Translations under genes and position numbers: made by a program
Shown here: piece after piece, positions 5,360 through 31,410 of the stretch
How the letters are laid out: each line of letters opens with the position of its first letter
How positions within the stretch are numbered: position 1 is the first letter of the stretch
DNA from: a virus
Reading direction: 5' to 3' (one strand)
Virus record (IMG/VR): IMGVR_UViG_3300050821_024071
Location: 1-33,830 of that record
Length of the DNA: 33,830 bases
Notes under the pieces: model-generated
What the model was told of the DNA's origin: nothing
What the model saw: only the letters and a program-made list of their open reading frames with translations
Databases searched by the model: none

Positions 5360-5599
5360 CGCATTCCCTCTGCGCCGTACACTAGCACGTCTCGCCAACT
5401 AAGTTCCAACGTTGTCACCCTTTTAGCCTGCATGCTGGCCTTAGCGGTTCAGGGTAGATTTCGGCATGAACAATCCCGGCGGATGTTTCAACAGTTTGTT
5501 CCCCATTCTTATGCCGTACTCTGGCTGAGAATTACCCGGCTGCCCGAAAAACCTAATTTCACCTTGCGCTCGCCAAATCATCGGCGTATTCTCGGTCCT

Positions 5600-6073
5600 A
5601 TGAGTTGGGTTACTGACAGGGTGGCATACGACGAACGCATGGAGCGGATTGACAAAACCCTCCAATCACTGCCGTACACCCCTGCGCCTCCGGCCTGGTT
5701 GTCAGTTTGGGAAGAGATCAACGTTTCCGCTCAAGCGGCTGTCCGCGAATTTAACCATAAAAAAGGCTCGGAACAATTCCGTGTGAGCGCGTGGCCGAAT
5801 AAGTCCGTGATCATGGAAGTCATTTCTCTACCCGCTGCGCACCGCGTTGCGACACTGGTATTGCAGGTAACGGATGAGCAGACTGGCGATTTAGGTCTCA
5901 CGTGTCCGCCCGTGGGCGAAGGGATAGGGCGGCGCGGCAAGTTCCGCATGCGCGACGGCAAAATCAAAGCCCTTGAGAATTTCGTAGGCGTTCCTCAACC
6001 TCCGACAACACCGATGACGGCAGCTGAGTTCGTCCGTTTTATTTTGGAACCTCTGTTGTTCCGCACAAAGTAA
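5600..6073 (+). CDS. Hypothetical cytoplasmic protein, 157 aa
   Basis: The start at 5600 gives a protein beginning MSWVTDRVAYDERMERIDK; a longer frame to 5432 exists but adds an unconvincing sequence. The N-terminal part is a helical pair (to about residue 60) and the rest is beta-rich (VSAWPNKSVIMEVISL, ATLVLQVTDEQ). It ends with a helix that includes TAAEFVRFILEPLLF. I recall similar MSWV-type proteins from Acidobacteriota genomes, which is a hint at the host and not proof. No ribosome-binding site is seen. It converges with the small membrane gene at 6078. Confidence 0.55.
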   Translation: MSWVTDRVAYDERMERIDKTLQSLPYTPAPPAWLSVWEEINVSAQAAVREFNHKKGSEQFRVSAWPNKSVIMEVISLPAAHRVATLVLQVTDEQTGDLGLTCPPVGEGIGRRGKFRMRDGKIKALENFVGVPQPPTTPMTAAEFVRFILEPLLFRTK

Positions 6074-6077
6074 GCAT

Positions 6078-6347
6078 CTACCCTTCGCGCTCCCTCCACC
6101 ATTCCCTCAACCAGTAAAGCGGAGCGACCGCAAGAGCAATAATGTAGAATTTCGACGAAGCGTGGAACCACGCCGCCAGCAACAGCACAAGAAGCACGTA
6201 CGTCGCGCTCACGATCGGAACGCGAACAACCCAGGATAGTCCTCGCCAGATTGTGGACAGCCGAACATTGAGCAACCTAGTCGGAGCCGACTTTACGCTG
6301 TCAATCACGTCGCGCACTGTCGGGTCGTCGTTCATAGGTTTATCCAT
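6078..6347 (-). CDS. Small membrane protein, 89 aa
   Basis: Second gene of a two-gene leftward unit; its ATG lies nine bases after the stop of the 51-aa gene. Residues about 44-60 (IVSATYVLLVLLLAAW) and 66-80 (FYIIALAVAPLYWL) form two membrane helices, followed by a short charged tail (REWWREREG). The first 40 residues are hydrophilic. The topology fits a hairpin inner-membrane protein. It may act in lysis or exclusion with its neighbour, but nothing in the sequence decides this. Confidence 0.6.
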   Translation of the reverse strand: MDKPMNDDPTVRDVIDSVKSAPTRLLNVRLSTIWRGLSWVVRVPIVSATYVLLVLLLAAWFHASSKFYIIALAVAPLYWLREWWREREG

Positions 6348-6356
6348 GTTCTTGCG

Positions 6357-6512
6357 TCACTTCCCGTCAACCGCAAACTGCATCCAGAGTCCCGCGTAGA
6401 TAAAACCTACACCCATTGCGATGAACCCGCCAACCCACCACCAACTGATATGATAAGCGCCGGGATCGGCTTTTTGATAAATCGCGTCCATTAATTCAAC
6501 CACATTTGGCAT
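6357..6512 (-). CDS. 51-aa single-span membrane protein
   Basis: A short gene with one of the strongest ribosome-binding sites in the window: GAGGAGG seven bases before the ATG. The product has a hydrophilic N-terminal helix (MPNVVELMDAIYQKADPG), then SWWWVGGFIAMGVGFIYAGLW as a membrane span, and a short tail VDGK. It is the first gene of a leftward pair and is divergent from the coiled-coil membrane protein at 6561, with about 48 bases between starts that must hold both promoters. Small-holin or spanin-like roles are possible but unproven. Confidence 0.65.
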   Translation of the reverse strand: MPNVVELMDAIYQKADPGAYHISWWWVGGFIAMGVGFIYAGLWMQFAVDGK

Positions 6513-6560
6513 TTCGTGCCTCCTCGGGCAAAAGCGGACTATAGCACACCCTAGTAGGAG

Positions 6561-6884
6561 ATGTTATACGCGATGGACCCCAGCAAACTCGTTCCAGCTA
6601 TTCTTGCCTACCTGCAACCAGCAACACTGCTTAGTGCGCTTGTCGGACTCGTGTGGTGGATTATGAAGAAAGCACTCAAGGCCGCAGCTGACCAACTCAA
6701 GGGAGTAAAGGAACAACTCTCGGAAATCCAGCAGATCACCAAGATACAAGCGGAGAACCACCTCAGCACCATCGAACGGGAATCACTCAAGCAGACGAGC
6801 CTCCTAGAAACGATGATCAAGGAACAGGCCGAAACAAATGGTTCGATTAAGACGCTCTGCGACGTCATCAGCAAGAAAATCTAG
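6561..6884 (+). CDS. Membrane-anchored coiled-coil protein, about 107 aa
   Basis: One N-terminal membrane helix (residues about 10-34, AILAYLQPATLLSALVGLVWWI) is followed by a long heptad-patterned helix (AADQLKGVKEQLSEIQQITK through IERESLKQTSLLETM), so it probably oligomerises at the membrane. Two starts are possible: ATG 6561, which directly abuts TAGGAG, or ATG 6573 (MDPSKLV), with that site 12 bases away. The layout resembles small phage membrane proteins of the holin/XhlA type. It sits opposite two other small membrane genes, so this may be a lysis or exclusion cluster. Confidence 0.55.
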   Translation: MLYAMDPSKLVPAILAYLQPATLLSALVGLVWWIMKKALKAAADQLKGVKEQLSEIQQITKIQAENHLSTIERESLKQTSLLETMIKEQAETNGSIKTLCDVISKKI

Positions 6885-6929
6885 CCCACCCAATATTCAA
6901 ACACACCGCAGAGAGATCAGTCCGAACAG

Positions 6930-6965
6930 AAAACAAAGAAAGCGAGGCAACCCTAGCTGCCTCGC
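6930..6965 (-). terminator. Intrinsic terminator for the leftward exported-protein gene
   Basis: GCGAGGCA (6942-6949) and TGCCTCGC (6958-6965) form a perfect 8-bp stem with an 8-base loop. On the minus strand it is followed by TTTCTTTGTTTTC. It lies 25 bases past the stop codon at 6990, where a terminator for that gene is expected. Confidence 0.75.
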
Positions 6966-6989
6966 CTCCGTAAACAAATTAGTAGAAGA

Positions 6990-7526
6990 CTACGCGACGT
7001 TGCCGTGGCTCGGATGATCACCACCTGCCCAACCACCTTGATGACCGCCACCGCCGCCCTGATTGCCCTGACCGCGATCACCGCCGTGATCAGGTGTAAC
7101 GACTGTACGGCCAACATCGGCAGGCAGCGAGGGTGTCACGGAGCGTTCAACGACACCCGAACGACCATCGGGTCCGTGCGCTGGTACGGCGTTCTCATTC
7201 GCCGGACTAGCTGGAACCACGGGCTTATCGGTAACATCCTGCCTACTAGGTAGCTGCAAAGGTGTTCCAGGCTCACCCTGCTTCGTGCTGATCTCTGATG
7301 GCTCAAATCCCGCACGAAAGGCGGCTCGCCCTAAATGACCATCGACGACATCGCCCCAAATATCACGCGCAACGCGATGGTCGCCACCTGGAATGAAACG
7401 GTCTATGGCCTTGTTGCCAGCCTCCTTGACCGCTTCTTTCGCCGCTTTGAAACCCAACGATTCGGCGTTTAATGCATACAAGCCAACCGAAGCTGCAAGA
7501 CCGCAAATCAGAGCTTGCTTGATCAT
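6990..7526 (-). CDS. Exported or membrane-anchored Gly/Pro-rich protein, 178 aa
   Basis: The ATG at 7526 has GGGGGAA five bases upstream and is preferred to an earlier in-frame start. Residues 2-24 (IKQALICGLAASVGLYALNA) are a signal peptide or signal anchor. A helical region follows (KAAKEAVKEAGNKAIDRFIPGG), then a Pro/Val/Ala linker, and the C-terminus is Gly/His/Gln-rich low complexity (GGGGGHQGGWAGG). No domain is recognised. With its own terminator and opposite orientation to the structural genes, it looks like independently expressed cargo. Confidence 0.6.
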   Translation of the reverse strand: MIKQALICGLAASVGLYALNAESLGFKAAKEAVKEAGNKAIDRFIPGGDHRVARDIWGDVVDGHLGRAAFRAGFEPSEISTKQGEPGTPLQLPSRQDVTDKPVVPASPANENAVPAHGPDGRSGVVERSVTPSLPADVGRTVVTPDHGGDRGQGNQGGGGGHQGGWAGGDHPSHGNVA

Positions 7527-7814
7527 ACGTTCCCCCAGTCGAAGATTTTGGCCCTTTGTTCGTTCGAAGCCGCACACACTCCTCCCTCGACCTTTACAGG
7601 TCGTCTTACTGTTTGGTTGGAGGTTGTGTTGGCTTCACATGGTTAGACGTATTTGGCTTCCGTGTTCGCTGCAGTGGCGGCAACCCATTGAACATGCTGC
7701 CGTTACTGTGAATTTGGCTCCTGAAGGGATGGCGGTAAGGTGCGTGGAATCTTGCGGTTGGCCTCACTAGCCAAGGTTGCCTGGGTTAGCAAGAATTTTT
7801 GATGGGTCCCAGTA
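7527..7814. other. Non-coding gap of about 290 bases
   Basis: No convincing gene is seen. A short hairpin CGACCT-ttac-AGGTCG lies near 7587-7602, within the upstream region of the leftward gene starting at 7526. Frames crossing this stretch have no ribosome site and unnatural composition. Confidence 0.4.
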
Positions 7815-8027
7815 CTAGGCAGAGCCGAAGAGTATTCGCATCGTCTCTTTGTACTGCGCGGCAACCTGAGGAGATTTCTTGGCGAAGTCCTCAAAAACCT
7901 GCTTCTCAATGATCTGCGTGGTGACGTCGCTCTTTCCCAACACGGCGTAAGACTCTTGCTCGGTGCGCGTCAGCATTCCTTGGATGAAGCCTGCTTCAAA
8001 AACCTGTTTCAGAGTCAGATTTATCAT
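7815..8027 (-). CDS. Small hypothetical protein, 70 aa
   Basis: The start is placed at the ATG at 8027, preceded by GAGGAC about nine bases upstream; the longer frame would require a TTG at 8084. The product (MINLTLKQVFEAGFIQGML...) is soluble and helical, with charged amphipathic stretches and no cysteines. No family is recognised. It is divergent from the HNH gene, with about 70 bases between starts. Confidence 0.45.
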   Translation of the reverse strand: MINLTLKQVFEAGFIQGMLTRTEQESYAVLGKSDVTTQIIEKQVFEDFAKKSPQVAAQYKETMRILFGSA

Positions 8028-8100
8028 CGGATAAGTCCTCGCAAATAGATTCCCTGCTTGCGCTACTGAGGATAGCAAAAACAATATGTCCGCCTAAGTA

Positions 8101-8523
8101 ATGCCTTCTTCTCCCACATCCCTCTGCCTAGACTGCTCATCACGAGCGATCAACAGTACGAAGTATTGCGCCAAGCACCAGACTTCCAACAATGCATCGG
8201 ACCACCGTCGTCTATATGACCGCTATCGCGCAGACGACCCGATTCGCGCACTCTACAAATCACGCAAATGGATAAAGGGAACAAGACTGATTGTCTTGCG
8301 GCGCGACATCTTATGCCGAGCAGAGGAAGGCTGTCCCGCAGTAGCCACCGTGGCCGATCACTATCCGCTATCAGCAAGGGAGATCGTAGCGACGCTCGGT
8401 GTGAAGGAGTTCTACAACAAGGAACGCTGTCGTGGACTATGCAAGTTCCACCACGACCAGTCCACCGCATTGAGGGAAGGGTTCGCTAAGAAAAATATAG
8501 CTCCAGCGATTGAGCATTCTTAG
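8101..8523 (+). CDS. HNH endonuclease
   Basis: 140 aa. An N-terminal zinc finger (C9-x2-C12, then YC23AKH26) precedes an HNH core: Cys72 and Cys78, the catalytic Asp86-His87 pair (VADHYPL), Asn106 in the middle strand, and C114-KFHH at the end. This is the small HNH type commonly found beside the small terminase gene of cos-type and HK97-like phages, where it assists the terminase in making specific DNA ends. Here it is separated from the terminase by one leftward exported-protein gene. No ribosome site is seen. Its stop overlaps the end of the opposing gene by four bases. Confidence 0.8.
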   Translation: MPSSPTSLCLDCSSRAINSTKYCAKHQTSNNASDHRRLYDRYRADDPIRALYKSRKWIKGTRLIVLRRDILCRAEEGCPAVATVADHYPLSAREIVATLGVKEFYNKERCRGLCKFHHDQSTALREGFAKKNIAPAIEHS

Positions 8524-16577: not shown

Positions 16578-17101
16578 TGAGTATCGAACAGGGATTGTTT
16601 CAACTCATTCAAACGGATGCGACGGTCAGTTCCCTGGTCAACATGGCTCAGGGCAAAGGATTGTACTGGATATTGGCACCGAAGGGTTCCGTGTATCCGC
16701 AAATCGTGCTCAGCCGCGTGGCGACAAGTGATGTCTACACGTTCAAGGGCGCAACGGGTTTCAGAAACGCATTGTTCCAAGTTGATTGCTACGCCTCGCT
16801 GTACTACCCGAGCCGTGCGATAGCAGATGCCGTTCGCGGACTTTTGCAATCTTATGTAGGGACCCTTGCGGATACGGATTTAACTTCCGTAGCGGCTGTG
16901 CTCACAACGAAGGACTGGGACATGCCCTACGAAGAGGGGGCAACAGGTTTCGTGTTCCGCTCAATGTTGGAGTTCAGAGTTTGGTACAGCGAAGTTGGAG
17001 TGATTGACGGGGGGACGTTCGGTTCTATGGACACCCTGCTAATAGACGGCGGTTCGTTTTCGTCAAGCGACGCCGGAAGAATAGACGGCGGGAGCTTTTA
17101 A
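16577..17101 (+). CDS. Tail terminator/completion protein, DUF3168 type, with IDGG repeats
   Basis: 174 aa from the TAATG overlap. Residues 1-137 match the DUF3168 (gp17-like) tail terminator: EQGLFQLIQTDATVSSLV, a beta core, ALFQVDCYASLYYPSRAIADAVRGLL, and FVFRSMLEFRVWYSE at the end. It caps the tail tube and joins it to the head. The C-terminus carries an unusual extension: IDGG(T/S)F at three positions (17003, 17042, 17081), exactly 39 bases apart, a 13-residue repeat. The stop overlaps the fibre gene start. Confidence 0.72.
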   Translation: MSIEQGLFQLIQTDATVSSLVNMAQGKGLYWILAPKGSVYPQIVLSRVATSDVYTFKGATGFRNALFQVDCYASLYYPSRAIADAVRGLLQSYVGTLADTDLTSVAAVLTTKDWDMPYEEGATGFVFRSMLEFRVWYSEVGVIDGGTFGSMDTLLIDGGSFSSSDAGRIDGGSF

Positions 17102-20100
17102 TGTCTCAGACATACACAATTGAACTAAAGCGGGGCTTGTTCGCAAATCTTCCCGCATCGGGCAGCCTCGGTGAGCCTTACTTCTGTACGGACACGGGTC
17201 AACTGTTCATCTGGAACGGCTCCGCGATGGCGCAGATTTCCGTCAACATTCCCGTCACGTCCGTATTCAGTCGCACTGGAACGATCACGGCTCAATCTGG
17301 TGATTACGGTGCCTTCTACGATGTACTCGGCGCGGCGGCCACGGCTCAATCCAACGCCGAAACCTTTGCTACGTCACAGGGCTACGTTACTGCTTCTACC
17401 GCTCCAGTGAGGTCCGTGTTTGGTCGCACAGGAATCATCACGGCACAAAGCGGCGACTATTCATATTCGCAGATCAGCGGCACACCAACTCTGCCGCAAA
17501 ATGAACCAGCAGTCGCTCACAACTTTCTGACAGCCTACAACTCCACAACCGGAGCATTCACACAGGCTCAGCCTTCGTACTCGGATATTTCAGGCACGCC
17601 ACAATTGGCACAATCTTTCTCCCCGGTAGCGGGTGAGTTTCTCACAGGCTACACGGCAAGCACGGGCGTCTTCACCGCTGCTACACCTTCGTATCCCGTG
17701 ATTTCGGTTTTCGGTCGCACGGGTACGGTCACGGCTGCAACTAACGATTACAGCTTCAGCCAGATCAGCGGCTCCGTGGCCGCAAGCCAGCTTCCGAATC
17801 CCTCGGCTTCCACCCTTGGCGGCGTGGAATCCATCGCCGCAGTCGCTCACAACTTCTTGACTGGTATCTCGACCTCAGGCGTTCCTAGTCAGGCTCAGCC
17901 TGCATTCACCGACATCTCTGGTACGGCGACATCCGCTCAACTTCCTGCGGCTACAAACTCCGCACAGGGCGCAATCGAACTCAACACCGATCTTGGCGGC
18001 ACAGCAACGGCTCCCCAAGTCGTGAGCACACATTTGGGTTCCCCGCTCCCCGTCAACCAAGGCGGAACGGGAACCACATCTCCGGCAATCGTCGCGGGTA
18101 CTGGTGTGACCGTTAGCGGTAGCTGGCCGAATCAAACCGTCAACGCAACATTGAACCAAGTCGTTCAGTCTGGCCTCATGGCCGAGTACCGCATCCTCGC
18201 TTCCGAGACTGTTGCCTCACTAGTGGATTACAGCGGTAACGGAAACGGCGCGACCGGAACCGTAGGTACGGCTCCGACGATTATCAGCGGCTCAGGCGGC
18301 ATTCAGTGCAATGCCAACGGCGCTGTAAGCCTGCCGTCCGCTTTGAACTCCGCGCTGACCATCATGGTCGTGGCGGGTTTCCAGCCGAGCGCAACCACGC
18401 AGTACACCAGTGGAACGCCTGCGGCATCAATCGCTCAAGCGTTGGTTCAGGGAACTAACTCCTCACACGCTATCGTGATGGAGTTGCTCGCACTTCAAGC
18501 CAATAACGGCGTCACGACCACAGCCAGCTTGCAGACTCTATTCGGCGGCTACCGTCCCGCAACACTCAACCAAACCGCAACTAACAACGGCTTCAACACG
18601 ATGACTGAGGGCTGTTTCGCTGGACTCGGAAGCCTTGCCCTGACTCTTGGTGCCTCCGACCAGTGGTACATCAACGGCGTCGCCATCCCGCAGACTCTAT
18701 CTTCCGCATCCGCTGGTCAACAGACTACGGGTAACTTCCAGCTTGGCGGTTGCGCTGCAAACACTGGACAGACTCTCGTCAGCTATTTCCAAGGGCAAAT
18801 CTATTACGTGCTGTTTTATAACCGTGCGCTCTCGGCATCGGAAGTCGTCGCCAACCATAACGTCATGCTCAATGCTTTGGCAGCACGCGGCGTGAACTTC
18901 TCACCTGCGATTGCCACCAGCGACACCCGTCCTCAGATCGTTACGATGGGCGACTCAATTACGGCGGGTGTAGGGGCTGGTGGAAATGCGCCATTCCCCG
19001 TGTATCTTGGTATTCCGCTCACCGGACTCCCCTACACACCCGCGATTGAAAACCAAGGCATCGGTGGTTCGACGGCAGCAGCGAGATATGCATACGGAAA
19101 CATTGACGTTGACTCGCTGTATCGTCCGGGTGCGATTGCGAACGTCTTCACGTATTGGCTGGGAACCAACGACAACAACCAAGCGGTCACCGATTGGGGA
19201 CTGACCCGAGACTACTTGCTCCAGCGCAAGGCGAAGGGCTTCAAAGCCATCCCTATTTCAATGATTTCCCGCACTACCGAGGACGCCTATAAGGACGCAC
19301 TGAATCCACTGATCCGCACCACTTGGAAAGAGTATGCAGATGGTTTCTGCGATATGGCTGCGAACCCAAACTTGGGTGCTGATGGAGCGTATGCGAACAC
19401 AACCTATTTCAGCGGAGACCAAGTTCACCCCACACAACTTAGCTACACAAGTGTTATCGCTCCGCTCGTGAACGCTGCGATTGCCCGTGTCTACGGCAAA
19501 CGCGACTTCTCGTCCGCACGCACTGTCGTGGCTCCATCCGGCATCGCAAACACTGGCGGTGCCACATTCGGCGTCAGCGGATTCAACTACGCAAGTCTGT
19601 CCATCGGAACCGTCGCCGAAAGCGAAGTGATTTACTTCGTGGCGCAGGGCAACGCTACCCCGACTTGGGTCAACGACAGTTTGGGGAACCAATACTTCAA
19701 CATCGCAAACACGTCAAACGGCGGCTCGGTTTGGGGCACGCGAACTATTCGTCCGGGCACCTGCTTTATCAACGTGTTCTATGCTGGGGGAATCCCGAAC
19801 TCAATTTTCCGTGGTTCATGGGCGAAATATTCAGGCGTTGGAAACTTCGGAGCGGAATCAGTTGCAAGCAACAACGCCGGATCGGGCACGACGATGACAG
19901 GCGGAGCGGTAACTCCGGCTGAAAACAACTGCTTGGTTCTCGGTATCGGCTCGACGGGATTTTCAGCGGCTTCGGTTGCGGCATCCGGCAGCTACACACT
20001 ACGAGCGTCTACTGCTAACTCGTGGATTGTTGAGTTTGTTCAAAGCTCAGCCGGAGCTACGACCCCGACAGCTACGAACTCCAACTCTTTGACCGCCTAT

Positions 20101-20637
20101 GGCATGACTTCAGTAGTGCTAGAGCCAGCGCCAAGCGGACTAGTGTATTTGACCGACACCGATGTATGCGTCAACGCCAATCCCGCTTCCGCAAGTGTGA
20201 CGCTCCAGCTTCCGACCGCAGTAGGCATGACGGGTCAGACAGTCAGCATCAAGAACGTCCAGACGAGTGGTGCCAACACCGTGACCGTTGTTCCCAAGGC
20301 TTGGCAGATTAAGTCTGTCACTGGAAATGGAACTACCGTCACTTATACGGTGGACAACACCTACAGCCTAGCTGCGGGTCAGAGCGTGACGACCACGGGA
20401 TGCACCACGGGCGGATTCAACGGCACGTTTACGGTGGCAACGGTTCCGAGCACCACGACCTTCACGGTTACGAACTCCACCAACGCAGCGGAAACCGAAC
20501 CGTACACGGCTCAGTACATCAACGAGTTGATCGACGGTGGGCCAAGCGACACCGTTGCCAACAAGGCCGCTGCGGTCTATCAGAGCGTTTTTGTCGGCAA
20601 CAGCACTGGCGGCGCGAACTGGGTGAGGATTCAATAA
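17101..20637 (+). CDS. Tail fibre/adhesin with lectin-like and SGNH-esterase domains
   Basis: 1178 aa. The N-terminal 240 residues hold three copies of the fibre motif V-F-(G/S)-R-T-G-x-(I/V)-T-A ending in (G/N)DY (coding from about 17269, 17413 and 17701), with SQISG/DISGT linkers. Residues about 365-600 look like a concanavalin-type lectin (LVDYSGNGNGATG, YYVLFYNRALSASEV). An SGNH hydrolase follows: GDSITAG with Ser619, GIGGSTAA, GTND with Asn690, and DQVHP with Asp773 and His776. All catalytic residues are present, so it may deacetylate surface polysaccharide. Residues about 800-1050 are a further beta domain, and the end is beta-repeat (TVTYTVDNTYSLAAGQ). It is placed in the head-tail joining region, where fibres are not usually found. 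Confidence 0.85.
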   Translation: MSQTYTIELKRGLFANLPASGSLGEPYFCTDTGQLFIWNGSAMAQISVNIPVTSVFSRTGTITAQSGDYGAFYDVLGAAATAQSNAETFATSQGYVTASTAPVRSVFGRTGIITAQSGDYSYSQISGTPTLPQNEPAVAHNFLTAYNSTTGAFTQAQPSYSDISGTPQLAQSFSPVAGEFLTGYTASTGVFTAATPSYPVISVFGRTGTVTAATNDYSFSQISGSVAASQLPNPSASTLGGVESIAAVAHNFLTGISTSGVPSQAQPAFTDISGTATSAQLPAATNSAQGAIELNTDLGGTATAPQVVSTHLGSPLPVNQGGTGTTSPAIVAGTGVTVSGSWPNQTVNATLNQVVQSGLMAEYRILASETVASLVDYSGNGNGATGTVGTAPTIISGSGGIQCNANGAVSLPSALNSALTIMVVAGFQPSATTQYTSGTPAASIAQALVQGTNSSHAIVMELLALQANNGVTTTASLQTLFGGYRPATLNQTATNNGFNTMTEGCFAGLGSLALTLGASDQWYINGVAIPQTLSSASAGQQTTGNFQLGGCAANTGQTLVSYFQGQIYYVLFYNRALSASEVVANHNVMLNALAARGVNFSPAIATSDTRPQIVTMGDSITAGVGAGGNAPFPVYLGIPLTGLPYTPAIENQGIGGSTAAARYAYGNIDVDSLYRPGAIANVFTYWLGTNDNNQAVTDWGLTRDYLLQRKAKGFKAIPISMISRTTEDAYKDALNPLIRTTWKEYADGFCDMAANPNLGADGAYANTTYFSGDQVHPTQLSYTSVIAPLVNAAIARVYGKRDFSSARTVVAPSGIANTGGATFGVSGFNYASLSIGTVAESEVIYFVAQGNATPTWVNDSLGNQYFNIANTSNGGSVWGTRTIRPGTCFINVFYAGGIPNSIFRGSWAKYSGVGNFGAESVASNNAGSGTTMTGGAVTPAENNCLVLGIGSTGFSAASVAASGSYTLRASTANSWIVEFVQSSAGATTPTATNSNSLTAYGMTSVVLEPAPSGLVYLTDTDVCVNANPASASVTLQLPTAVGMTGQTVSIKNVQTSGANTVTVVPKAWQIKSVTGNGTTVTYTVDNTYSLAAGQSVTTTGCTTGGFNGTFTVATVPSTTTFTVTNSTNAAETEPYTAQYINELIDGGPSDTVANKAAAVYQSVFVGNSTGGANWVRIQ

Positions 20638-25531: not shown

Positions 25532-26215
25532 ATGAGCTACACAATTATGCCGACCATGCCCTTGAGCATGGCAAAGGGTCTAAAGAAGACGCCGAACTTC
25601 AACACGGTGAAGCAGAAGGTCGCTGCTAGCAGAGGCAATGCCGCAGTTTCGCTGAAGCCTTACCCGACTTGGGACTTCGAGTTCGACCTTGACCACATTA
25701 CTGGGAATGAAGCCGCCGCGTCATCCGTATTGGCCGAGTTCTTTGGCACCTTCATGGCAACTGCGGGGGGCGCTGCGCTTTTCCTGTTCACCGATCCGCA
25801 AGACAACACCGTAGCCACAAGCAGCAGCGGAATGCTGAACGTCACTCCGGGCGCTGCATCGCCAATGGGTCTGACGGGGGATGGAACCTCCACGCAGTTT
25901 CAACTTGCTCGCCAGATCGGCGGGGTCGCATGGGACATCATCCAAAACCTGAACGGCGGCATAACCGTGAAGGTCAACGGTTCCGTCGTCACGAACTACT
26001 CCGTCTCGAACACGGGCGTCATTACCTTTACGCCCGTAGGCTCGCCGCCTGTGGCTGCACCTCCAAATGGCGCGACGCTGACGTGGACGGGATCATTCTA
26101 TTTTCTATGCCGCTTCGATGAAGACATTGTGGATGCTACTCGCTCGTTCACGACCAATTCCGGCACTGACCAGTGGCTTGTCGCAGCCGTGAAATTCAGT
26201 TCGGAGTTCGTATAG
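25532..26215 (+). CDS. Distal tail protein, DUF2460 type
   Basis: 227 aa. YPTWDFEFDLDHITG, AEFFGTFMATAGGAALFLFTDPQDN and the block GDGTSTQFQLARQIGG followed by VKVNGSVV match DUF2460, the distal tail protein of gene-transfer-agent-like and related siphophages (gp12 of Rhodobacter GTA). The end CRFDEDIVDATRSF is typical for the family (R-F-D-x-D). It makes the ring linking the tail tube with the hub. It starts two bases after the tape measure stop and abuts DUF2163. Confidence 0.85.
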   Translation: MSYTIMPTMPLSMAKGLKKTPNFNTVKQKVAASRGNAAVSLKPYPTWDFEFDLDHITGNEAAASSVLAEFFGTFMATAGGAALFLFTDPQDNTVATSSSGMLNVTPGAASPMGLTGDGTSTQFQLARQIGGVAWDIIQNLNGGITVKVNGSVVTNYSVSNTGVITFTPVGSPPVAAPPNGATLTWTGSFYFLCRFDEDIVDATRSFTTNSGTDQWLVAAVKFSSEFV

Positions 26216-27157
26216 ATGAAGCGACTCATGCCATCTACGTTGATCACCTTCTTGCAGCAGAACCCTAACTGCCTCAAGGCCGATCTATTCGTCATCACTT
26301 TGCCGACAGGCACGGTGATATATGTAACCGAAGGTCAATTCGATATTACGGTTCCCAGTGGCACGCCCGGATGGGCCGGAGCTACTCATACGTTCTTGTC
26401 CACGACCTACGGCAAATGGACACGTGGGCCGATCACTAGCGAGGCTGGTTTCAGCCTCAGCGCGAACAGTATGCAATTGACGTGCGTGCCCCAACAGAAC
26501 ACGGCGTTTCCATCTGCGAGTATCGGAATACTTGCCGCTGCGTTCAACGGTCTGTTCGACGCTTCCACAGTTAGCATTTTCACTTGCTACATGCCCATCG
26601 GAAATTACGGCAATGTCAGCGCGGGCATTGAGACAAAGTTCGTCGGCTTCATCGAGAAGATCAACAAGATCAATCGCACGGTGGTGGAGTTCGAGGTTCA
26701 AGACCCGCTGTACTTGCTCAACGAAAAGGTTCCCAAGCGACTAGTTCAGAGTAGCTGCCCGTGGAGCTTCGGAGATAGCAACTGTAATGTGGCCGGGGGA
26801 TTGGCAGCGTTTACCCAGGCTTTCACCGCCACAACTGGAAGCAACCAAACCACGCTCGTTCCTGTGACGGCATTCTCGCAGGCCGCTGGGTATTTCACCC
26901 AAGGCGTAGTGACGTGTACAGCAGGTGCGAACGCGGGATTGAGCCAGACGGTAAAACTCCACGCAAGCGGCAACTTGCAAGTCATGTTCCCGTGGATATT
27001 GCCAGTAACCGTGGGTAACACCTTCACCGTGGTAGCGGGTTGCGACAAGTCTGTAACGGCGTGCAAGACGAGAAAAACAGCAGCGGGTGGAGCGGTGGAT
27101 AACTCGATTCATTTCGGCGGAGCGATAGACGTTCCAGTGCCGATCACGGGGTTGTAA
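26216..27157 (+). CDS. Tail hub protein, DUF2163 type
   Basis: 313 aa. KADLFVITLPTG near the start, VEFEVQDPLYLLNEKVPKR and a Cys motif C181-P-W-S-F-G-D-S-N-C190 are diagnostic for DUF2163/GTA gp13 hub proteins. In the Rhodobacter GTA and lambda gpL relatives such cysteines bind an iron-sulfur cluster, so Cys181, Cys190 and other C-terminal cysteines (VTCT, GCDKSVTACK) may do so here. It forms the hub under the distal tail ring. The gene begins on the base after the DUF2460 stop. Confidence 0.85.
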   Translation: MKRLMPSTLITFLQQNPNCLKADLFVITLPTGTVIYVTEGQFDITVPSGTPGWAGATHTFLSTTYGKWTRGPITSEAGFSLSANSMQLTCVPQQNTAFPSASIGILAAAFNGLFDASTVSIFTCYMPIGNYGNVSAGIETKFVGFIEKINKINRTVVEFEVQDPLYLLNEKVPKRLVQSSCPWSFGDSNCNVAGGLAAFTQAFTATTGSNQTTLVPVTAFSQAAGYFTQGVVTCTAGANAGLSQTVKLHASGNLQVMFPWILPVTVGNTFTVVAGCDKSVTACKTRKTAAGGAVDNSIHFGGAIDVPVPITGL

Positions 27158-27165
27158 AGGAACCT

Positions 27166-27639
27166 ATGTCTCTAACGGACAAAGCAAGACAGAACATCGT
27201 GCGGGTTGCGGAGTCGTGGTATGGCACGCCGTATCGAGGTCACTCCTGCCTGAAGGGAGCGGGCACGGACTGCGGACAACTTCTAAAGGGTGTGTTCATA
27301 GAAGCTGGTCACAAATTCGACGATGGCATTCCACTGCCGAAGGACTATTCGCTTCAGGTCGCGCAACACCGTAAGGACACCGCTTACATCGAGACTGTTG
27401 AGAAGTACATGCGTGAAGTCACCGAGGCTGACGCACTGCCAGGCGATGTCGTGATCTACAAGCTAGGCCTCGCATTCGCTCACGCGGCAATCATCAAGGC
27501 GTGGCCGGAGCATGTGATTCATGCGCTTGAGCGCGAAGGCGTGACGGCTGGGCACGGAATGAATTTCAAGTTCGGAAGGCTGGAGAAGAAATTCTACACG
27601 CTCAAGGATGAGTTTTGCGGTAGCGAGGAAACAAAGTAA
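27166..27639 (+). CDS. NlpC/P60 tail-tip peptidase
   Basis: 157 aa. Catalytic Cys36 in GTDCGQLL, His106 in FAHAAII and His119 in VIHAL fit the NlpC/P60 triad; the order WYGTPYRGHS, then GTDC, is typical. Related proteins (GTA gp14, lambda gpK) cleave peptidoglycan peptide or help tip assembly. It lies eight bases after the hub gene with AAAGGAACC ahead of ATG. Its stop overlaps the J-like gene start (TAATG). It is the only clear peptidoglycan hydrolase candidate in the window. Confidence 0.87.
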   Translation: MSLTDKARQNIVRVAESWYGTPYRGHSCLKGAGTDCGQLLKGVFIEAGHKFDDGIPLPKDYSLQVAQHRKDTAYIETVEKYMREVTEADALPGDVVIYKLGLAFAHAAIIKAWPEHVIHALEREGVTAGHGMNFKFGRLEKKFYTLKDEFCGSEETK

Positions 27640-30600
27640 TGGCAATCTTCGGTGGTGGCAAAAGTAATTCGCCAACAAAGGAGTTCGGCGCACGGGTCAA
27701 CCAATCCGTGTTGGGATACCCGTACCCCGTCGTCATGGGCACTGCTCAGGTCCAGCAGACCCTCTTGTGGATCGACGGCTTCGACGCCACAAAGCAATCA
27801 AGCAAAGGCGGAGGCGGCAAGGGCGGTGGCGGCAAAGGTGGTGGTGGGTTCTACACCTACACGGCGGACTGTGTTGCCGCGCTTTGTAACGGCCCGGTCA
27901 GCGGCATCGGCGATGTGTGGAGCGGTCAGTCATGGCTCGGAAGTCCCACGGCAGCCGAGGCCTATACGATTACTGGAAGTGGCACATATACGCCGACGAA
28001 TGCTAGCGCCCTTTACAACGACTTGGGCGTCAGTGTGGAGACTTCGTACAGCGGAACTTACAATGACTATGGTTCGCCGGGTTCCGTCTCTCTAAGCGGC
28101 GTAGATCGCTCTCCGCTTCTCCGTGTCGCCTATGGCACGACGCTGAGTACGGGGCAGTACTCCATCAATCCTTCGACTGGTGCGTACAACTTCAACAACA
28201 CTGCGGATGCTGGAAGGGTAGTTCACCTGTCCTATTCGTTCCTGTACACCACCATTAACCAGCAGGAAACCGACGTCGTTCCCGCTGGGAAGACTATCAG
28301 CGTCGGAGGAAGCCAGAAGTTCGGTTCTGACTTCGGAGTCCGTTATGCCGCTGGACCAAACGTGGGAGTGGCGCTCACGCGAGTATCTGGAACTCCGAGC
28401 GCAACGGGCACCTACCAAGTCACGGGCAGCGCACCCGCCACATATCATTTCGCCACGGGCGACATCGCCGCTGAAGTCACAATTACATTTTCGATCAACG
28501 ATCCCAACGCCGTAGGTCAGGGCCAGTCTAGTACGCTGAACTTCACCCTGAATGGCGGAACTCCGGGTCAATCACCGTTTTCCTTCTTGACGGCAAGCTA
28601 CCCCGGCGCTGCGTTTGGATACACCAGCCTTGCCACTGTCCTGTATCAGCCTATGGGTTTAGGTTCGTCCGGTGAAATTCAGCAAAACAAGTTCGAGGTC
28701 ATAACTCCTGACGTTTACGGCGGTGGGGTCGAAGACTGTAACCCTGTCACCTGCGTAACGAAGGTGCTCACCAACGGACAATGGGGACTGGGAGTAGGGC
28801 CGATTCCCTTCCCCACTTCCGTGTTAGACAACGGAGCGAGCGGCACTTGGGGAGGCTCCGCCTCAACACCCGGCGCACGTCAATCGAACGGCACCGCATG
28901 GAACTGGTTCGCGGCCAATAATTTCTTTATATCTCCAGTGATCGACACTCAGGACACTGCGGCATCCGTCATGAGCAAGTGGCTGGAAGCTGGAATGTGC
29001 GCTGCGTTCATGAGTGAAGGTTTGCTCAAACTCGTTCCCTATGGCGACACCACAACAGTAGCCAACGGCGTCACCTGGACTGCGCCATCTACATATGTTG
29101 TCGCGCTGGACGATAGTTGCTTCGTTGGCAAAGAGGGCGAAGACCCGGTCAAGATCAGCCGCATTGCTCCGCACGATGCCTGGAACGTCGTACAGATTCA
29201 GTGGGACAACCGCCTAAACCAATATTCACCAGAAATCACGCAGGAGTCCGACCAAAGTCTCATCAATCGTTGGGGTGAACGCCGCGAAGATCCGCAAAAC
29301 TGGGATTTCATTCACACCCTTCCAGCAGCGACCTTTGCCGCAGACATGCGGCTGAAGCACGGCTCTTACATCCGCAACAGCTATGAGTTCACGCTTCCTT
29401 ACTCCTACTCGTACTTGGAGCCAATGGACATCGCGACCATTAGCACGACGAGTGTATGGGCGACGGGATTGAACAACACCAACCTCAGCGTGACTAACCT
29501 TCCTGTGCGCATCACTAAGGTCGTTGACGACCCCGTAGCTGGATTGCACATTACGTGTGAAGACTATCCGTTCGGCGCTCATCAACCGACGTTGTACAAC
29601 AAACAGATTAGCAATGGCGATGTCGCAGTGGATACGTTCGCCGATCCCGGCTCAGCCGAGATTGTCATGTTCGAGGCGACCAACCAACTGACCGGATACA
29701 ATGGCGACCAGATTTGGATTGGTGCTCTCGGAACCTCAGACAACTACGGCTTCACGAACGTCTGGGTCTCTCAGGACGGCACCACCTACAAGCAGGTGGG
29801 AACCATCCGTGCTCCCGCTCGCCTCGGTGAAGTGCACTCCACATTTGCAAGCGGCAGCGACCCGGACACGACGAACACCCTCATCGTGGACTTAGCGGAC
29901 AACTGTCAGGCTCTCGAAGCTGGTACGACCACAGATGCGGACAACGGCACCACGATGTGCTTTGTGGATGGAGAAATCCTCTCCTACTCTGCTCTGTCGT
30001 ACACGGGGCAGAACCAGATCACGATGGGCACCTACATTCGCCGTGGGCAGAAAGGCAGCACGATTTCTTCTCATGCTGCGTCTGGATTGTTCCTACGTCT
30101 CGATGATTCTGTGTACAAATACACCTACGACCCGGTGTGGCGTGGGCAGACACTCCACTTCAAGTTCCAGGCAGTGAACTCGTTCGGCAACAACGCACAG
30201 GCATTAAGCAGCCTTACGCCTGTCAGTTTTACGCTTCCGGGCACCAGCAAGGGCACGATAGATGCCAGCACGGGCATCATTCTTGGTCCCGCACTGCCGA
30301 ACTCTACTCCATTGAATGGGCAAGGCAGCATCGCTGGAGCAGGCGTCAACACATTCGCTTATACGTCCACGACATCCAGCATCAAAGTCACATGGACATC
30401 GTTCCCTGTCTACAACCCTGACGGCTCATCCTTCACTGTGCCTGCGAACTCGACTGGCACAACCTTTAGCGGACTGACCAGCGGAACGACCTATTACTTC
30501 GGCACATACGTGGTTGTATCCACAGGCATCTGCCACGCTGTCCTCAGCGACGTTAGCAGCGGCAAGGCTCTGTTCTCCGCTCAATATATTACGCAGACGC

Positions 30601-31055
30601 TCAACGGCGACGGCAACATCGGAGTCAATTGGAACATCGCAGCGGCTACGACTTCGTCTGGAACTGGTGGTGGTTCAGGTGGTGGGGGTGGCACGGGTGG
30701 GTGCTTCACGCCGAACAGCAGACTCCTAGACTTGACGCCTATTAGCGAGGTGGTAGTCGGAGATTTGATTTGGGTGGAACTTGAGGACAGCACGTTCGTT
30801 CAACGTCCTGTCGGGGCGGTGCTCACTTACGAGTACGACGGCATCCTCCATAACGTGGACCTCGGAACTTGGGTAACTCCAAACCACCGCTTCAAGCAGC
30901 CCGATGGCTCGTGGAAGCGTGCAGACGAACTGTTCTCCAAGACCATGCACTACACGGGGACCGTCCACAACCTGCACATCGAAACGCAGGACGACAATGA
31001 ACGCAACTACATTCTGTGGAACAAGATGGTCGCTCACAACTACAAGATTGCTTAG
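27639..31055 (+). CDS. J-like tail tip/host-specificity protein with C-terminal Hint domain
   Basis: 1138 aa, GTA gp15/lambda J-like. The N-terminus MAIFGGGKS..VLGYPYPVVMGTA and TADCVAALCNGPVSGIGDVW are typical. A K-GGGG linker repeat is at residues about 54-70. The central hub and fibronectin-like parts (SFTVPANSTGTTFSGLTSGT) follow. After a GGGSGGGGGTGG linker comes a Hint domain (residues 1022-1138): Cys1022-Phe start, VVVGD, block B TPNH (1080-1083), and a terminal His1133-Asn1134 with only YKIA after it. These are the residues needed for thioester formation and Asn cyclisation, so the domain could cut itself off or attach the tip to another molecule. That activity is inferred. No endonuclease is inserted. 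Confidence 0.88.
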   Translation: MAIFGGGKSNSPTKEFGARVNQSVLGYPYPVVMGTAQVQQTLLWIDGFDATKQSSKGGGGKGGGGKGGGGFYTYTADCVAALCNGPVSGIGDVWSGQSWLGSPTAAEAYTITGSGTYTPTNASALYNDLGVSVETSYSGTYNDYGSPGSVSLSGVDRSPLLRVAYGTTLSTGQYSINPSTGAYNFNNTADAGRVVHLSYSFLYTTINQQETDVVPAGKTISVGGSQKFGSDFGVRYAAGPNVGVALTRVSGTPSATGTYQVTGSAPATYHFATGDIAAEVTITFSINDPNAVGQGQSSTLNFTLNGGTPGQSPFSFLTASYPGAAFGYTSLATVLYQPMGLGSSGEIQQNKFEVITPDVYGGGVEDCNPVTCVTKVLTNGQWGLGVGPIPFPTSVLDNGASGTWGGSASTPGARQSNGTAWNWFAANNFFISPVIDTQDTAASVMSKWLEAGMCAAFMSEGLLKLVPYGDTTTVANGVTWTAPSTYVVALDDSCFVGKEGEDPVKISRIAPHDAWNVVQIQWDNRLNQYSPEITQESDQSLINRWGERREDPQNWDFIHTLPAATFAADMRLKHGSYIRNSYEFTLPYSYSYLEPMDIATISTTSVWATGLNNTNLSVTNLPVRITKVVDDPVAGLHITCEDYPFGAHQPTLYNKQISNGDVAVDTFADPGSAEIVMFEATNQLTGYNGDQIWIGALGTSDNYGFTNVWVSQDGTTYKQVGTIRAPARLGEVHSTFASGSDPDTTNTLIVDLADNCQALEAGTTTDADNGTTMCFVDGEILSYSALSYTGQNQITMGTYIRRGQKGSTISSHAASGLFLRLDDSVYKYTYDPVWRGQTLHFKFQAVNSFGNNAQALSSLTPVSFTLPGTSKGTIDASTGIILGPALPNSTPLNGQGSIAGAGVNTFAYTSTTSSIKVTWTSFPVYNPDGSSFTVPANSTGTTFSGLTSGTTYYFGTYVVVSTGICHAVLSDVSSGKALFSAQYITQTLNGDGNIGVNWNIAAATTSSGTGGGSGGGGGTGGCFTPNSRLLDLTPISEVVVGDLIWVELEDSTFVQRPVGAVLTYEYDGILHNVDLGTWVTPNHRFKQPDGSWKRADELFSKTMHYTGTVHNLHIETQDDNERNYILWNKMVAHNYKIA

Positions 31056-31065
31056 AGAGGGCACG

Positions 31066-31410
31066 ATGATTCAAATCTACTTCATTTCTCCCAACGGAGC
31101 CTCGGTCGTACAGAAGGCGCTACTCGGTCTTGGTGGGCAGCGCACGCACGGCTGGCGACCGGATGGGGACGACAAACAAGTGATTGGCGTGGTTGAAGTT
31201 CTGATGGGCGATACCGAACAGGTGTGTGACGCTCTAGAAGCCGCTGGCATTCTTATTCTGCCCGACCACAAAGGCACGGAAACGATAGCGGCGGAGCATC
31301 ACGAAAAGCTCAAGCTGCATGGCGTTTTACCGACGGATACCACGAAGATCGCCATGACCAAGGTTCACGGGATCGCCGGGTTCCCGCCGTTGAAACCCAA
31401 GAGGTTTTAA
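31066..31410 (+). CDS. Small hypothetical protein after the tail tip, 114 aa
   Basis: Start at the ATG 31066 with AGAGAGGG about five bases upstream, ten bases after the J-like stop. MIQIYFISPNGASVVQKAL is followed by GWRPDGDDKQVIGVVEVLMGD and a helical end with HHEKLKLHG. It is soluble and alpha/beta with no known motif. As the last gene of the structural operon it may be a tip accessory or a chaperone for the fibre or Hint domain, which is inference from position only. Its stop overlaps the opposing gene by four bases. Confidence 0.65.
   Translation: MIQIYFISPNGASVVQKALLGLGGQRTHGWRPDGDDKQVIGVVEVLMGDTEQVCDALEAAGILILPDHKGTETIAAEHHEKLKLHGVLPTDTTKIAMTKVHGIAGFPPLKPKRF

Follow-up and report, generated by a model that had tools for sequence, protein, structure and literature searches.

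In an uncultivated soil phage, the tail-tip protein was found to end in a Hint domain of the A-type bacterial intein-like (BIL) kind, which makes up its last 117 residues (1022-1138) and represents a familiar domain type in a new and recurrent position. The same ending, with intact reactive residues, recurs as an exchangeable unit on several tail proteins that are unrelated, a pattern suggesting that phages with the Hint cassette trim their own tail tips or finish them chemically. The window, meaning the whole 33.8 kb stretch of DNA analysed, is IMG/VR record IMGVR_UViG_3300050821_024071. It carries terminase, portal, head protease, major head protein, tail module and integrase genes, so it most likely represents a temperate tailed phage, and because a J-family relative was found in an Acidobacteriaceae MAG contig, the host is probably an Acidobacteriaceae bacterium. 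The tail genes run in the order tape measure, DUF2460, hub, NlpC/P60 and the 1138-aa tip protein, the last four in the order of the GTA orf12-15 block. Between the head and tail genes lies a 1178-aa ORF (17101-20637) with no PHROG match. The features concerned, all on the + strand, are as follows.

25532..26215 (+), DUF2460 tail protein (PF09343, E 1.4e-21)
26216..27157 (+), baseplate hub / tail assembly protein (PF09931 and PF09356)
27166..27639 (+), NlpC/P60-type tail peptidase in a GTA orf14-like context (TIGR02219, E 4e-15, with a score of 56.5 bits, under the cut-off of 81.9)
27639..31055 (+), J-like / GTA-megatron-like tail-tip protein, 1138 aa, intact ORF (PF13550, phrog_1101)
30306..30653 (+), tip domain before the linker, about residues 890-1005, common to other Hint-bearing tail proteins
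30654..30701 (+), Gly-rich linker SSGTGGGSGGGGGTGG, residues 1006-1021, ending directly before Cys1022
30702..31040 (+), Hint domain, residues 1022-1134 (AlphaFold2 model, structural matches, profile comparison, 41-member family)
30702..30704 (+), Cys1022, block A nucleophile (Cys1), invariant in 41/41 members
30876..30887 (+), block B T-P-N-H; outside the v subtype, every member has TxxH or SGTH here
31035..31040 (+), block G His1133-Asn1134; Asn in 41/41 members, His in 39/41
31041..31055 (+), C-terminal tail Tyr-Lys-Ile-Ala (YKIA) and stop, without a +1 nucleophile
31066..31410 (+), small downstream gene, 114 aa; in L002 and L093, homologues immediately follow the gene with the Hint

Membership of the tip protein among J-like tail-tip proteins is indicated by PF13550 (Phage-tail_3), matched over residues 436-603 with E 1.6e-15 and 57.8 bits against a cut-off of 23, and the phrog_1101 tail protein matches it as well (E 9.6e-41). 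The protein resembles phage lambda J and the GTA megatron (orf15) in PF13550 and in the DUF2460-hub-NlpC-tip gene order, and differs from them in its C-terminal Hint and in a match to the GTA megatron model NF048004 of 76 bits, below the cut-off of 800; phage lambda J and GTA megatron members are not known to carry a C-terminal Hint. A profile built from the 150 aa that precede Cys1 retrieved both Hint carriers and Hint-free homologues. The Gly1021-Cys1022 bond is the predicted N-terminal scissile bond. Near the N-terminus of the tip protein, a Gly-Lys repeat, KGGGGKGGGGKGGGG, was also observed (27795-27851), and several of its Gly and Lys positions do not vary among 15 relatives of the J core.

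An earlier note had read a Hint signature in this ending, and each of its elements is present: Cys1022 directly after SSGTGGGSGGGGGTGG, VVVGD, TPNH, His1133-Asn1134 and the YKIA tail. When compared by hhalign with a profile made independently from remote relatives, the Hint of the window subgroup matched it at a probability of 99.7 and E 1.9e-26, which is far above chance. The fold that the earlier note had suspected was found by both profile comparison and structure prediction, the AlphaFold2 model (built with 17 relatives) having a pLDDT of 89.2 and a pTM of 0.81. The top PDB matches of this model in Foldseek were Hint domains (E 1.8e-7), and VIA-align gave a Z of 14.9 to Tetrahymena BIL2 (6y75); the other best structural matches were the C. 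thermocellum BIL, Vint 8r2c and the inteins of DnaE and DnaB. In many VIA-align rows, model residue 11 (Cys1) aligns to intein residue 1 and model residue 123 (Asn) to the intein C-terminus. The sequence-only match to Tetrahymena BIL2 is weak (E 0.024), and Pfam alone gave Vint (PF14623) 18.8 bits, short of its gathering cut-off of 27. Among the window, L002 and L047, the Hint shows dN of 0.12-0.15 against dS of 0.9-2.3 (dN/dS about 0.07-0.14), so it is under purifying selection, as the J core is.

Known settings of the Hint domain are inteins, Hedgehog, secreted proteins of bacteria and toxin systems. The window Hint is most like the A-type BILs, represented by C. thermocellum 2lwy and BUBL1 BIL2 (6y75/6tmm): the modelled fold agrees with theirs (Z of 14.9 to BIL2 and 14.0 to 2lwy), Cys stands at the first position, block B is TxxH, and a terminal His-Asn is followed by Tyr and not by a +1 nucleophile. 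A-type BILs sit in hypervariable regions of non-conserved proteins (PMC7765530), and the Hint module likewise occupies a variable part of an exposed protein, with gains, losses and exchanges on a J core that is itself conserved. Unlike A-type BILs, the phage Hints form the very C-terminus of tail proteins, where they follow a Gly-rich linker and have only 3-8 residues after the Asn; they include a TxxE block-B subtype, and their activity is putative. The best Pfam profiles, Vint (PF14623) and Hint_2 (PF13403), match 10/18 and 8/18 members, respectively, and the solved Vint 8r2c resembles the window Hint (Z 13.7), although it comes from a von Willebrand-A protein and not from a tail protein. 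The Hedgehog Hog domain (1at0, Z 12.1) is likewise a C-terminal Hint able to cleave from its N-terminal part; the phage Hint differs in having a terminal Asn and no sterol-recognition region, with only YKIA following it in the window. An intein would be inserted within a host protein and followed by a C-extein that starts with Cys, Ser or Thr at +1; here Tyr occupies +1 and four residues lead to the stop.

To survey the family, J-core and Hint profiles were run against viral contigs and Acidobacteriaceae genomes, and a total of 41 C-terminal Hint domains were collected, the sources being contigs of soil viruses and prophages of Acidobacteriaceae. All 41 have Cys1 and the terminal Asn, and His precedes the Asn in 39, with Thr in its place in L059 and L092. 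The invariance of Cys1 and Asn holds in a set whose subtypes share only about 23-40% identity with the window Hint. Relatives with a visible end have 3-8 residues after the Asn, compared with four in the window, and the residue at +1 is never Cys or Ser, with Thr in three of the 40 members whose tail is visible. A tip domain and a Gly-rich linker precede nearly all of the Hints; the linker is lacking for the two tandem Hints in L123 (a 463-kb contig classed as viral), which are joined by KAAV at one C-terminus (7650-8372, within ORF 5406-8372), and this region exceeds the Hint_2 cut-off at the second Hint. In the family to which the L113 genome belongs (Acidobacteriaceae), at least nine of 300 genomes bear tail-type Hint endings. 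A further Hint subtype was noticed in L169 and L174 (two contigs from Acidobacteriaceae-family genomes), with VxREKTRGVI near the start, a TCGH or TPGH block B and an SHN or QHN ending, also behind a Gly-rich linker.

Block B is T/SxxH in all of the collected Hints except 18, here called the v subtype, which have S/TxxE, mostly SPCE (L021, L078, L095, L077, L079, L082, L142-L144, L146, L147, L150, L155, L162, L163, L165, L166 and L173). For the earlier note, a lack of Cys1, the block-B His and the terminal His-Asn in relatives would have spoken against its reading, and this is partly the case: the v subtype lacks the block-B His but retains Cys1, His-Asn and, as judged from its model (pLDDT 86.4, Z 14.8 to BIL2), the Hint fold, with an hhalign probability of 95% against the classical Hint group. 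With His replaced by Glu, the N-terminal chemistry of the v subtype may differ or be lost. The last protein residue is Cys (8) or Ser (10) in all 18 v Hints, while the intervening tail varies; in classical members, Lys or Thr is the usual last residue. The terminal Cys or Ser is possibly a displaced nucleophile.

The distribution of the module was then considered on the J tree. Among the 56 J-family rows uncut at a contig end, the Hint is fused to J in 19 and lies on the next ORF in four (L061, its near-copy L062, L059 and L092), together about 40%. It was also found on L142-L147, L150 and L138/L116, which represent other J types, and, in different phages, on the fibre-like proteins L118/L120 and L155. 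The fusion to a J-like protein described in the earlier note thus holds for the window but is not specific to J, as the domain occurs also on downstream fibre ORFs, other J types and a non-J fibre. Within one tight clade of the tree (L093, L095, L094 and L098), the Hint is classical in L093, of the v subtype in L095 and absent from L094; for about 1,470 residues L093 and L095 are 73% identical, beyond which each continues into a different tip and a different Hint subtype. Between tail proteins, the tip, linker, Hint and small downstream gene are exchanged as one unit. Across the J tree, the C-terminal module is often gained and lost, so the Hint is not essential, a point that counts against self-trimming of the tip.

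Small genes of about 75-120 aa directly follow tip genes, including those of L002, L093, L077, L061 and L074; no Pfam match above noise was obtained for them, nor, for the one in the window, a PHROG match above noise. All 13 of the v-type loci examined share one common family of downstream gene; a second family comprises the window, L002 and L093, a third L003/L061/L064/L073 with Hint-free L065, a fourth L074/L075/L118 with Hint-free L069 and L085, and a fifth L063 with Hint-free L051. The family thus tracks the tip-domain type whether the Hint is present or absent, and since it also stands beside Hint-free homologues, the small gene more likely encodes a tip chaperone than a partner of the Hint. 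A role as a Hint-specific ligation partner was rejected on account of its presence beside Hint-free L065, L069, L085 and L051.

Splicing was considered unlikely in the earlier note, and the relatives agree: 37 of the 40 members with a visible tail, among them the window with its Tyr, have no Cys, Ser or Thr at +1. Cleavage is what A-type BILs mostly do when they carry His-Asn but lack a nucleophile at +1 (PMC7765530, PMC7664689), so it is to be expected here. Among the roles proposed earlier, self-trimming of the tip best fits the relatives, mainly because Hint-free homologues end where cleaved carriers would. Hint-free homologues of four tip types (L069/L070, L094, L051, L065 and, with a domain inserted, L085/L084) end just past the Gly-rich linker. 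For instance, Hint-free L069 ends '...KITTSSGGGGQGGGGGQGGGGGYGHNQN'; Hint-free L094 ends '...TPGSGGGTGGGGRQVY', where the Hint carrier L064 reads '...NGSGGGTGGGGRGG|CWSGN', and the end of Hint-free L051 was compared with the carrier L063; after cleavage, a carrier would end nearly where its Hint-free homologues end. The chances are about even that this A-type BIL-like domain cleaves itself off at Gly1021-Cys1022 and so trims the tail tip. Cys1022 would attack the Gly1021 carbonyl (N-to-S acyl shift), the thioester would undergo hydrolysis or pass to a small nucleophile, and the Hint (13 kDa) would depart, so that the mature tip ends in a Gly-rich tail. Cyclisation of Asn1134 could free the four-residue tail or speed the first step. 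In block F, however, the window clade has Arg in place of the His of many relatives (ERNYIL versus EHSYTL), so that C-terminal Asn cyclisation may be weak and the N-terminal step is the likelier to matter. Until assembly or release, the Hint cap might help the tip to fold or to stay inactive. Other tail fibres have chaperone domains of the S74 type that are cut off; the likeness lies only in this proposed role of a self-removed C-terminal domain, the fold and chemistry being unrelated.

The same Gly-rich ends would equally fit a plain add-on domain, and a Hint that is tethered but catalytically unused, serving a structural or binding purpose such as capping, stabilising or receptor contact, has to be weighed against trimming. 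The flexible linker, the frequent gain and loss of the Hint and the persistence of the fold in a whole subtype without the block-B His all agree with such a domain; mere binding, however, needs neither the Cys1 placed at the linker junction nor the terminal Asn, both invariant in 41/41, and we regard it as somewhat unlikely. Hedgehog is joined to cholesterol through its Hint chemistry, and the thioester might similarly be resolved by a nucleophile on another molecule (a host glycan, lipid or amine, or a virion protein), leaving the tip covalently joined to it. Hint domains are capable of such chemistry; the solved fold nearest to this one is Tetrahymena BUBL1 BIL2, the domain is at the distal end of the tail-tip protein, and v Hints invariably end in Cys or Ser. 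Nevertheless, covalent attachment to a fibre or host molecule, also raised in the earlier note, gained no support: no conserved acceptor gene accompanies the Hint, the neighbouring small gene, the obvious candidate, being found equally beside Hint-free homologues; no substrate-recognition region like that of Hedgehog follows the Hint; and some relatives share the tip but lack the Hint and presumably work without it. Such attachment is possible, though quite improbable.

HINT domains serve toxin release in polymorphic toxin systems, and on this ground the domain could be a pre-toxin HINT release domain, or else a decayed intein. Both are highly improbable and already disfavoured by the architecture of all 41 members. 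No toxin domain follows in the few residues after the Asn, the first L123 Hint precedes only a second Hint, there is neither an endonuclease nor a match to defence-system models (PADLOC), and the Hint is under purifying selection instead of decaying. A wider version of the trimming reading is unlikely as a whole: a widespread class of soil phages would make its tips as self-processing precursors with an exchangeable cassette of tip domain, Gly linker, Hint and downstream gene, and the Hint would leave an activated C-terminus that is either trimmed or joined to an acceptor, with the terminal Cys or Ser of the v subtype, which has Glu for His in block B, perhaps acting as a displaced nucleophile. 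Should self-trimming be true, the conserved cassette would represent a new use of Hint domains, namely a host-independent maturation of the receptor-binding part; it would explain the Gly-rich tails at tip ends, and the Hint would be a modular C-terminal cap available to tail-tip proteins.

No match in a tail context was obtained when the Hint types were searched by tblastn against 50,697 isolate phage records, where, apart from one unannotated record, the matches were inteins or Hint-like stretches lying in genes for helicases and terminases and in one for a head/capsid protein; the tip regions had no match in the isolate phage collection either. Four of the five Tunturi isolates infecting Acidobacteriota gave no match, and the paper on these isolates mentions neither Hint nor intein. 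The v profile found no match in 396 Acidobacteriota genomes; a later mixed-profile scan at the family level did find v-type tips, so the empty result is a matter of sampling. No paper describing a Hint on phage tail tips was found in the searched library, whose coverage leaves out subscription journals and preprints. The viral structure library holds phage proteins already named Hint, so automatic annotation has met such domains. In L042 (5001-7905), a J-like gene is broken into several frames, reflecting either a pseudogene or sequencing errors.
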